DNA from: Spirochaeta thermophila DSM 6192
Lineage (GTDB): Bacteria > Spirochaetota > Spirochaetia > Winmispirales > Winmispiraceae
Direction: 5' to 3'
Assembly (NCBI RefSeq): GCF_000147075.1
Contig: NC_014484.1
Coordinates: forward strand, 1,009,501-1,073,500
Length of the DNA stretch: 64,000 nucleotides
Translations under genes and position numbers: made by a program
Shown: positions 22,482 through 25,028 of the stretch, piece after piece
How positions within the stretch are numbered: position 1 is the stretch's first letter
Layout: each line of letters starts with the position of its first letter
The notes under the pieces: generated by a model
Databases searched by the model: none
Seen by the model: the letters and a program-made list of their open reading frames with translations, nothing else
Told to the model about the DNA's origin: nothing

Positions 22482-22510
22482 CTTGTAGAGTAGGATGGAG
22501 AAAAAGTCAA
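22482..22510 (-). promoter_or_regulatory. Promoter of cimA leader transcript
   Basis: Minus strand: TTGACT (22510-22505), 17 bases, TACAAG (22487-22482). The predicted start is at 22475-22474, the A of the leader-peptide ATG or one base before it, so the leader peptide would be translated from a leaderless end. Confidence 0.55.
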
Positions 22511-22591
22511 GGGTGGCGTGAGGCGCCCCTCTCCATATCGGTGGGCACGGAGAGGTGTGGCAGGAGACCGGGTGCCCGTTTTCGGATCGTG

Positions 22592-22620
22592 TTGACATAT
22601 GGTTTTGTTCATACTACTAT
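22592..22620 (+). promoter_or_regulatory. tRNA-Val promoter
   Basis: TTGACA, 17 bases, TACTAT (22615-22620), with a start near 22627, 18 bases before the mature tRNA. The -35 is a perfect consensus. The same TACTAT -10 appears upstream of phoH at 54572. Confidence 0.75.
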
Positions 22621-22644
22621 CGGCCTTGACGTCGATACGTCCAT

Positions 22645-22716
22645 GGGCGATTAGCTCAGTGGGAGAGCGCCTGCCTTACAAGCAGGATGTCAGTGGTTCA
22701 AATCCACTATCGCCCA
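22645..22716 (+). tRNA. tRNA-Val (anticodon TAC)
   Basis: A 72-base cloverleaf. The acceptor arms GGGCGAT and ATCGCCC pair, the D-loop has TTAGCTCAGTGGGAGAGC, the anticodon stem CCTGC/GCAGG encloses CTTACAA (anticodon TAC, reading GTA and related valine codons), and the T arm contains GTTCAAAT. The 3' CCA is not encoded: the discriminator A is followed by TCC. Confidence 0.95.
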
Positions 22717-22738
22717 TCCCCCCGTGAGGGGGATTTTT
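22717..22738 (+). terminator. Rho-independent terminator after tRNA-Val
   Basis: TCCCCC and GGGGGA arms around a CGTGA loop followed by five T, beginning directly after the tRNA discriminator base. It separates the tRNA from the next gene, whose ATG is at 22760. Confidence 0.85.
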
Positions 22739-22759
22739 CATGTGACAAGGGGGCTTCCC

Positions 22760-23482
22760 ATGAGGAAGGTCGTGCTGCCCGTTGCAGGGACGGATGAGAC
22801 CTACACCCTTCGTCCCTCCAAGATCATTGCCCTGGGACTCAACTACAGGGAGCATATTGCAGAGAATATCACCGCTGAGATAGTGAGGTCCCAGGAGCTG
22901 CCGGAGGAGCCCATCCTTTTCAACAAGACCCCCAATGTGCTTATCGGGCCCGAGGATGCGATCGTACTCCCCGCGATGGCGGCCCGCTATGCTACCCCAG
23001 AGGATCCTGAGCGCACCGACTACGAGGCCGAGCTCGCGGTGATCATCGGGAGGGAGTGCAGGAACATCTCCCCTGAGGAGGCCCCAGGGGTGATCTTCGG
23101 CTACACGTGTTTCAACGACGTGAGCCAGCGGAACATCCAGAAGCGGGACAAGTCCGGCTGGTGGCGCGGCAAGTCCTTCGACACCTTCGGCCCCATCGGC
23201 CCCGTGATCGTGCCCGCCCGGGAGATCCCTGATCCACACGCCCTTCGGATTCGGTGTCGTCTCAACGGCAGGGTGGTCCAGGACGGGTCCACGGGGGACA
23301 TGATCTTCAGGATTCCTGAGATCATCTCCTTCATTTCCCGACATATGACCCTGGAGGAAGGGGACATCATCGCCACCGGCACCCCGCAGGGGGTGGGTCC
23401 CCTCCATCCAGGCGATGTGGTGGAAGTGGAGATAGAAGGAATCGGAGTGCTCCGCAACCCTGTGGTGGCGGAGACACCCTGA
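22760..23482 (+). CDS. Fumarylacetoacetate hydrolase family protein
   Basis: A 240-residue protein of the FAH fold. The family landmarks are visible: KIIALGLNYREHIAEN at the start, the metal-site YEAELAVIIGRECRN, GYTCFNDVSQRNIQ, and GDIIATGTPQGVGP near the end. The family cleaves C-C bonds or tautomerises/decarboxylates 2-oxo-acids (for example oxaloacetate or catechol-pathway intermediates); the substrate cannot be told here. I chose the ATG at 22760 (MRKVVLPV) with aaggggg upstream over 22724, which lies inside the tRNA terminator. Confidence 0.88.
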   Translation: MRKVVLPVAGTDETYTLRPSKIIALGLNYREHIAENITAEIVRSQELPEEPILFNKTPNVLIGPEDAIVLPAMAARYATPEDPERTDYEAELAVIIGRECRNISPEEAPGVIFGYTCFNDVSQRNIQKRDKSGWWRGKSFDTFGPIGPVIVPAREIPDPHALRIRCRLNGRVVQDGSTGDMIFRIPEIISFISRHMTLEEGDIIATGTPQGVGPLHPGDVVEVEIEGIGVLRNPVVAETP

Positions 23483-23503
23483 CGTGTATCCGCGTTGCGG
23501 ATA

Positions 23504-23540
23504 CGGCGGTCGCAGCAACCCGCCTCACCAAAACAAGGAG
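23504..23540 (+). promoter_or_regulatory. preQ1-I riboswitch (Thermoanaerobacter type)
   Basis: The stem GGCGG/CCGCC (23505-23509 and 23520-23524) encloses the ten-base loop TCGCAGCAAC, and the tail is AAAACAAGGAG. This matches from memory the structurally characterised Thermoanaerobacter tengcongensis preQ1-I aptamer, whose loop differs at one base and whose tail is AAAACAAGG. The tail contains the Shine-Dalgarno AAGGAG seven bases before the ATG at 23547, so ligand binding should hide it and repress translation. A separate hairpin, TATCCGC/GCGGATA, precedes it at 23487-23503. Confidence 0.9.
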
Positions 23541-23546
23541 TCCTCC

Positions 23547-24233
23547 ATGACAAACGAACTCCTCTGGTTTCTCATGCTCACTGCTACCTTTGTGAGTGTG
23601 ATCCTGCTCTACCGGACGATGGGGAAGGTCGGACTCTTCCTATGGATTCCGGTGAGCGTGATCATCGCGAACATCCAGGTGGTGAAGACGATCACGCTCT
23701 TCGGGCTTACCGCCACGCTCGGCAACATCGTGTATGCCTCCACCTTCCTCGTCACCGACATCCTCTCCGAGATCTACGGCACACGGGAGGCGAGAAAGGC
23801 GGTGGTGATGGGCTTCGTGAGCCTGCTCGCGATGATCGTGCTCACCCAGTTCGCCCTCTGGTTCGTGCCCGGTCCGGACGATTTCTCGCAGGAACACTTG
23901 GAGGCGATCTTCTCCCTCATGCCGAGGATCGTCCTCGCGAGCCTGGTGGCCTACCTCGTTTCCCAGTTCCACGACGTGTGGGCCTTCCACTTCTGGAAGG
24001 AGCGGTTCCCCTCCTGGCTCTGGTTCAGGAACAACGCGAGCACCATGGTGAGCCAGCTCCTCGACAGCGCGATTTTCTCGTTCCTCGCCTTTACAGGGGT
24101 GTACCCGTTCGGGGTGGTGGTGGAGATAGCCGTCACCACCTATCTGTTCAAGTGGATCGTGGCTGCCCTCGACACGCCTTTCCTCTATCTTGCCACGTGG
24201 CTCAGGCGACGAGATCTCGTCCCCGGGGAGTAG
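23547..24233 (+). CDS. yhhQ: Queuosine precursor transporter (YhhQ/QueT-type, DUF165)
   Basis: A 228-residue inner-membrane protein with about six helices and the DUF165 landmarks: NIQVVKTITLFGLTATLGNI, TDILSEIYGTREARKAV, VSQFHDVWAFHFWKER and RNNASTMVSQLLDSAIF. The family imports queuosine precursors (preQ0/preQ1). The riboswitch directly upstream independently supports the assignment. The start at 23547 follows AAGGAG, which is part of the aptamer tail. Confidence 0.93.
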   Translation: MTNELLWFLMLTATFVSVILLYRTMGKVGLFLWIPVSVIIANIQVVKTITLFGLTATLGNIVYASTFLVTDILSEIYGTREARKAVVMGFVSLLAMIVLTQFALWFVPGPDDFSQEHLEAIFSLMPRIVLASLVAYLVSQFHDVWAFHFWKERFPSWLWFRNNASTMVSQLLDSAIFSFLAFTGVYPFGVVVEIAVTTYLFKWIVAALDTPFLYLATWLRRRDLVPGE

Positions 24234-24256
24234 TGCTCGGTCTCCAGGGCACTACT
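24229..24256. terminator. Bidirectional hairpin between convergent genes
   Basis: The perfect inverted repeat AGTAGTGC (24229-24236) and GCACTACT (24249-24256) contains the TAG stops of both convergent genes, one in each arm. No strong T run follows, so termination strength is uncertain. Confidence 0.55.
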
Positions 24257-25028
24257 CCTTCCACGGGAAGAACATACCTTTGAGGGTTCGCTTGCCGACC
24301 CGTTCCCGCTCCTCGATGAGGAGGGTCTCCCAGGGGATCTTCTTCCGGTCGGCATCGGGGTGCGCTTCGAGGTACTCGTACTTGTACATACGGAGCTTGA
24401 GCGCGTCCTGGAGCCATACCATGAGGCCGGCCGGTCCCGGGACGAGGAGGGCGGTGAAGATGGAGATGAAGAGGATCACCGGGGTCGAGAGGATCAAAAG
24501 GATGCTCAGGCCCGGATTGTCCAAGGCGAGGAGAAAGGACTTCTTGAGGACTTTCCTCACCTTCGGTTCTATCTGACAGAGGAGGGGATAGAACCACACG
24601 CTCATGAGGGACCACCCGATGAGGGCCCACAGGAGGATCACCATGCCGATGAATCCTATGGCGCCTCCCCATGATGCGTAGAAGGGAAAGAAGAAGAAGG
24701 GGATGAGTACTGCGAGGGCGGTGAGGCCGCCGAAGACGAGGGACCCCTTCCAGGTGTGTGCGAGGTAGGAGACGAGGTCGCCGAACGAGGGGGTGCGGTA
24801 AAAGGCGATCTCCTTCGCGGCCATGGCGAGCACGCCCAGATAGAGGAAGGTGATGACGAGCCCCACCACTACCACGGCGGTCATCACCGGGAGGCCGAGC
24901 GGGCTCACCCAGTCGGGAACCACGGTCGGGATGGCGAAGGAGAGCAGGAAACCCAGGTTGAGGACCACCACGGTGATGAGATGATCCCACGTGTCGAAGA
25001 ACGCCTTTTTGATGAGAAAACCGATCAT
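24252..25028 (-). CDS. Predicted multi-pass membrane protein
   Basis: A 258-residue protein with about six membrane helices beginning MIGFLIKKAFFDTWDHLITV. The layout (a W-D-H-L start, helices, then a soluble tail rich in Lys/Glu with KIPWETLLIEERERVGKRTL) resembles DUF624/YesL-like membrane proteins only loosely; I do not assign it. The start at 25028 is favoured because a promoter lies six bases upstream and there is no ribosome binding site for a longer frame. Function unknown. Confidence 0.7.
   Translation of the reverse strand: MIGFLIKKAFFDTWDHLITVVVLNLGFLLSFAIPTVVPDWVSPLGLPVMTAVVVVGLVITFLYLGVLAMAAKEIAFYRTPSFGDLVSYLAHTWKGSLVFGGLTALAVLIPFFFFPFYASWGGAIGFIGMVILLWALIGWSLMSVWFYPLLCQIEPKVRKVLKKSFLLALDNPGLSILLILSTPVILFISIFTALLVPGPAGLMVWLQDALKLRMYKYEYLEAHPDADRKKIPWETLLIEERERVGKRTLKGMFFPWKE

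Follow-up and report, generated by a model that had tools for sequence, protein, structure and literature searches.

The question raised by this locus is whether the short stretch ahead of a transporter gene in Spirochaeta thermophila is a preQ1-I riboswitch like that of Thermoanaerobacter tengcongensis (Tte), what it controls, and how an element so close to a Firmicute one came to stand in a spirochaete. The window, that is, the whole stretch of DNA analysed, comprises 64,000 nucleotides of strain DSM 6192 (NC_014484.1, positions 1,009,501 to 1,073,500), and the features described below lie on its forward (+) strand. An upstream cistron of the fumarylacetoacetate-hydrolase (FAH) family (PF01557; 22724–23482, the true start possibly being a later codon) ends with a TGA stop at 23480–23482. 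Three nucleotides past this stop begins a perfect 8-bp hairpin, P0 (GTATCCGC GTT GCGGATAC; 23486–23504), which ends where P1 starts, its 3′ arm adjoining P1 with a linker of 0. The aptamer proper (23505–23538; Tte numbering n corresponds to 23504 + n) consists of the P1 5′ strand GGCGG (23505–23509), the loop TCGCAGCAAC (23510–23519), the P1 3′ strand CCGCC (23520–23524), and L3 with the 3′ tail, TCACC AAAACAAGG (23525–23538), in which the tail AAAACAAGG alone occupies 23530–23538 and the P2 3′ strand includes G33-G34 at 23537–23538. The Shine-Dalgarno sequence AAGGAG (23535–23540) has its first four bases within the aptamer, and the ATG at 23547 follows 6 nt past the end of the Shine-Dalgarno sequence and 8 nt past the last aptamer base. 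A sequence-only reading of this DNA had set the element at 23504–23547; this span contains the aptamer but has to be trimmed at both ends, as 23504 is part of P0 and 23547 the first base of the ATG.

The gene behind the element (23547–24233, 228 aa) encodes a queuosine-precursor transporter of the YhhQ/QPTR family, matching TIGR00697 with 237.1 bits against a cut-off of 50.95 and also PF02592, in line with the DUF165-type transporter that had been read from the letters. A promoter scan of 22500–24400 returned a single promoter-like site, at 22592–22620, before tRNA-Val and the FAH gene; a promoter of the transporter's own was therefore rejected for this region, and the transporter and FAH genes are assumed to form an operon. 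The FAH gene is preceded by the tRNA-Val gene (TAC; 22644–22719) and a terminator-like hairpin (region 22592–22734). In the sister genus an FAH-like gene likewise stands upstream of the element, with a tRNA before it.

On sequence comparison the element is confirmed as a preQ1 class I, type II aptamer, a known class, complete at 23505–23538. It has a P1 of about 5 bp closed by the conserved G5-C16 pair, the loop base U6 (23510), the specificity base C15 (23519), an A-rich 3′ tail (AAAACAA, 23530–23536) and a queuosine-linked gene downstream (TIGR00697 and PF02592). By the typing rules of section 4 of PMC11625349, the dinucleotide AC before the P1 3′ strand (23518–23519) places the element in type II; type I would have UC at this place, and type III a UU loop start with a pyrimidine-rich loop, whereas the window loop begins with UC and holds GCAG. 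The Tte construct printed in PMC10639078 corresponds to letters 224–257 of a Thermoanaerobacter thermocopriae locus (L005), to which the window element is identical in 25 of 34 bases overall and in 21 of 24 outside P1. Within P1, the pairs C-G, U-A and G-C of Tte are replaced by G-C, G-C and C-G, so that three of five pairs differ and pairing is kept. An unpaired core that is conserved around a stem that covaries is what would be expected of a functional aptamer.

Covariance searches gave different answers depending on the model. A match to the Rfam preQ1 family, which had been proposed as a check, was not obtained: searching 241 bases at the locus with RF00522 gave nothing at E ≤ 10, and in the whole genome the model found only four chance places of 13–14 bits, none of them at the locus; at its gathering score it reported nothing in the window or in 30 loci (20 + 10), a set that includes the window's own locus (L014). 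Read to the letter, this is the outcome that the sequence-only reading had named as refuting it. The T. thermocopriae copy, whose aptamer is identical to that of Tte, scored 24.4 bits against a gathering score of 39, so the miss at the window is uninformative and lies with the model rather than the element; RF00522 was rejected as a detector or membership test, considering that the Tte sequence itself falls under its cut-off. We built a model, R3, from five Firmicute loci with the window excluded. These loci had been collected with a pattern based on the loop and tail of Tte and the window; it retrieved six stretches, one of which (L007) was dropped with a P1 that was unpairable by eye; because the loci were picked by a motif-based pattern, the independence of R3 is partial. 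R3 matched the element with 51.7 bits (E 4.9e-9 in the window search and 1.9e-7 genome-wide, where no other place reached E ≤ 10), and this match is not due to chance. The earlier assignment to the Tte kind is supported.

Relatives of the element recur through the window's phylum. Model R1 (five sequences including the window; threshold E ≤ 0.01) had matches in 24 of 392 genomes of the phylum, one of them false (G028/L034, inside a SecA-like frame), and model R2 (28 sequences) in 68 of 195 genomes of family f7 and in 42 of 394 of the class. A profile search found TIGR00697 in 279 of 385 genomes of the phylum; as far as R1 and R2 detect, most of these transporters stand without the element. In 94 of the 107 matches inspected, the first frame downstream was a homologue of the window's or of L023's transporter (BLAST), and the rest comprised three QueF-like frames, two short QueT-like ones, four matches for which no frame was found and four that were false or doubtful; the inspected set did not extend to the lowest-scoring R2 matches in G299, G491 (two), G498, G561, G639 and G268. 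The two short Firmicute membrane proteins behind aptamers, which had no match in NCBIfam, we take to be QueT-like. L034 (in the SecA-like frame), L103, L108 and L008:312-342 were dropped from the counts, and the kept set numbers 103, with L032 and L078 being one place counted twice. The dropped match L008:312-342, on the (−) strand of a Peptococcaceae bin, is a weaker second aptamer-like match of 24.8 bits, and the frame behind it is presumably ParB-like.

All 103 kept elements can form the five pairs of P1, five of them using one G-U pair, and nine fully Watson-Crick sets occur: GGCGG/CCGCC, AGCGG/CCGCT, GGCAG/CTGCC, CGCGG/CCGCG, GGTGG/CCACC, CTGGG/CCCAG, CCGGG/CCCGG, TGCGG/CCGCA and GCAGG/CCTGC. 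The first loop base is U and the last C in 103 of 103, and the dinucleotide before the P1 3′ strand is AC in 96, UC in six and CC in one; since P1 and tail are features on which R1 and R2 select, these conserved-base counts are partly circular and are supportive rather than proof. Several variants were observed among the relatives. Aptamers with UC before P1 stand upstream of a QueF-like gene in L035, L110 and L111; in L035 the QueF gene was checked as TIGR03139 and overlaps a downstream TIGR00697 transporter gene. L091, L094 and L109 carry long inserts in the second aptamer loop, with an extra hairpin seen by eye, and L095 has a hairpin-like insert between P1 and the tail. In L018, L019, L065–L069 and L071 the tail reads AAAACGACGGAGG, and the Shine-Dalgarno sequence has moved outside the aptamer, the loop still being Tte-like.

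Taken together with the gene downstream, we hold it very probable that 23505–23540 acts as a preQ1-I type II riboswitch lowering translation of the transporter gene that starts at 23547. The translational control proposed earlier is supported by the anatomy, with the Shine-Dalgarno sequence lying inside the tail. The ligand, the pseudoknot and the sign of control we infer as follows. With ligand bound, P1 (GGCGG/CCGCC) would be formed, C15 (23519) would be the pairing partner of preQ1, and the A-rich tail would lie docked against P1. Pairing of the loop with the start of the Shine-Dalgarno sequence (C9-G33, as in Tte) would lower 30S binding. Both C9 and G33 of Tte are present in the window; the folding tools handled nested pairs only and did not predict P2. 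Across the relatives, complementarity between the loop and the Shine-Dalgarno region had a mean of 3.01 as compared to 3.05 in shuffled loops and gave no covariation signal for P2; being no higher than in shuffled loops, it is unfit as evidence for P2. Because the product of the gene probably brings the ligand or a precursor of it into the cell, the switch would provide end-product feedback on salvage. Each of the three genomes in the window's family has TGT and QueA, and none has QueF. With the QueC profile, each of the two members of the window's genus showed a pair of short partial matches, and the sister genus two longer weak ones, all within frames of 365–527 aa; none was taken as QueC. 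This suggests that the precursor is imported, not synthesised, in this family, which would make the transporter the natural point for feedback.

The same gene content bears on which ligand the aptamer meets in the cell. With QueF, which converts preQ0 to preQ1, absent from the family, the physiological ligand of a real aptamer might be preQ0 or queuine brought in by the transporter, or both, rather than preQ1. YhhQ relatives are described in PMC11570991 as carrying preQ0 and preQ1 in Escherichia coli and queuine in Chlamydia, and the affinity of Tte for preQ0 is given in PMC10622847 as ~17-fold below that for preQ1. We nevertheless consider this unlikely, as QueA, found in 3/3 genomes, is required after insertion of preQ1 and not after insertion of queuine, and the bases of the window pocket are those of Tte. 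That the element is a plain hairpin near the Shine-Dalgarno sequence, operating with no ligand at all, is scarcely credible: RNA folding indicates that P0 and P1 form next to each other with no ligand needed, as such a hairpin would, but the conserved part of the element is its unpaired loop and tail bases and the covarying part is P1. The sequence-only reading had raised horizontal transfer or strong conservation to explain the likeness to Tte. Recent acquisition of element and transporter from a thermophilic Firmicute could be argued from the closest aptamer across phyla, in a Clostridiales bin (L006), which is identical in 32 of 34 bases; the transporter of L006, however, falls in the opposite half of a tree in which that of the window lies within a 20-row clade of eight families, all of its own phylum, with support of 100/98. 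This tree covers 93 transporters behind such elements (92 different), thus aptamer-bearing genes only, is midpoint-rooted and has a bootstrap that is not settled; the Firmicute transporters L006, L008 and L010 group in its other half with families f2 and f7. Moreover, the element precedes the transporter in each of the family's three genomes, i.e. the window, a second genome of the genus (L011/L015) and one of the other genus (L013/L016, with the loop TCGCAGACAC), and the sister genus has the same gene order and a transporter that is 69% identical. Given this shared position, the phylum-wide relatives and a clade apart from the Firmicutes, recent transfer is unsupported and we regard it as highly improbable. 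The near-identity to Tte appears to fit better with a constrained aptamer or an old spread.

Whether the switch extends upstream into P0 is a further question. In the sister genus (G001) the hairpin reads GCAA-ttc-TCCCGC GTT GCGGGA-TTGC, also with a linker of 0, and in comparison with the window two or more pairs have both of their bases exchanged, whichever end the count starts from; the comparison covers only two distinct sequences. In L005 of T. thermocopriae, GTGAGCA AAA TGCTCAC adjoins P1, although the folding program prefers another P1 fold there; the last four bases of the 3′ arm of this hairpin are the ucac with which the smFRET Tte construct begins before CUGGG, as printed in PMC10639078. 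P0 was rejected as a genome repeat, having one exact copy and six one-mismatch places as compared to two in a reversed-pattern control. Stems of at least 5 bp with any loop length occurred at linker 0 in 28 of 93 records (104 records without L034, L103 and L108, near-copies removed), as compared to 7.8 in shuffles and 11–24 of 93 at other linkers, and local hairpins with 5-bp stems in 8 of 89 at linker 0 and 7 to 11 of 89 at linkers 11–19 (103 records, all four matches dropped, near-copies removed). Because the excess is not confined to linker 0 and local hairpins show no enrichment there, P0 was rejected as a feature shared across the family.

Another upstream form was found in 16 of the 103 elements, belonging to f7 and to a single f3 genome (L043, L041, L046, L022, L050, L052, L051, L048, L023, L025, L026, L054, L057, L083, L086 and L090), in which CAGCGG lies no more than 75 bases upstream and CCGC immediately precedes P1. 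The flanks had not been a selection criterion, yet in every one of the 16 the CAGCGG loop is closed by a stem of 5 to 13 pairs; in the alignment of the 16, seven of the eight pairs of this helix 1 have changed on both sides. For the whole structure, 91.3% of cells in the 16 aligned sequences are paired, as compared to 81.1% when shuffled and at most 65% when slid. Helix 2, in which the invariant AGCGGY loop would pair with RCCGC before P1, is nearly invariant, with one compensatory cell, and its pairing had entered into the selection. When the extension of helix 2 was assessed by permutation, p was 0.037 for Watson-Crick pairs and 0.36 with G-U allowed. The comparative evidence leaves the AGCGGY hairpin of these 16 genomes well supported, and its pairing with RCCGC, possibly as a tandem pseudoknot, only suggestive. 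In L046, L050 and L023 the AGCGGY hairpin looks like an intrinsic terminator.

These two forms raise a tentative possibility, to which we give less than even credence, that many preQ1-I switches of the phylum are not 34-mers on their own but the 3′ half of an extended coaxial RNA whose upstream helix adjoins P1 with linker 0, namely the P0 hairpin in the window's family and the second helix of the AGCGGY/RCCGC pseudoknot in the 16 genomes; such a helix might tune affinity or couple a second signal, and would have been cut off in minimal Tte constructs. For P0 we lean towards the simpler explanation of an intercistronic or message-protecting hairpin with no role in the switch. Its start 3 nt after the upstream stop codon and the local hairpins of the relatives, as frequent at linkers 11–19 as at linker 0, point in this direction, whereas the sister genus, where compensatory pairs go with an unchanged linker of 0, and the hairpins in the same placement in L005 and others point towards a role. 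If the adjoining helix does matter, work on the most intensively studied small aptamer has left out part of the fold it has in nature.

The element belongs to a branch of a known class that recurs through the phylum, is missed by the standard Rfam model and combines a Tte-type pocket with yhhQ-type genes; since the current Rfam model does not report this branch, genome annotation underestimates the class in the phylum. Among the titles retrieved on preQ1 in spirochaetes or Treponema and on queuosine riboswitches, none reports preQ1-I in spirochaetes, the class survey cited as ref. 69 of PMC11625349 lying outside this scope. The phylum list for types I and II in PMC11625349 does not name spirochaetes, and riboswitches are called rare in spirochetes in PMC2258182. 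PMC11625349 describes yhhQ-type genes for type III, a type that occurs almost only in Pseudomonadota.

Compared with known systems, the element is closest to type II Tte, with which it shares the 34-nt register, nine of ten loop bases, the tail AAAACAAGG, AC before the P1 3′ strand and the overlap with the Shine-Dalgarno sequence. It differs from Tte in the three replaced P1 pairs, in its position inside an apparent operon, 22 nt past a stop codon, and in the gene controlled, which is QueT-like in Tte and a YhhQ-type transporter in the window. With the type I system of Carnobacterium antarcticum it has the H-type layout and the A-rich tail in common, whereas that aptamer has UC before the P1 3′ strand, where the window has AC, and binds two ligands. 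The type III system of Escherichia coli likewise controls a yhhQ gene and has AAGG in the tail and the AC specificity motif; in place of the UU start and pyrimidine-rich loop of type III, the window carries the purine-containing loop of Tte.
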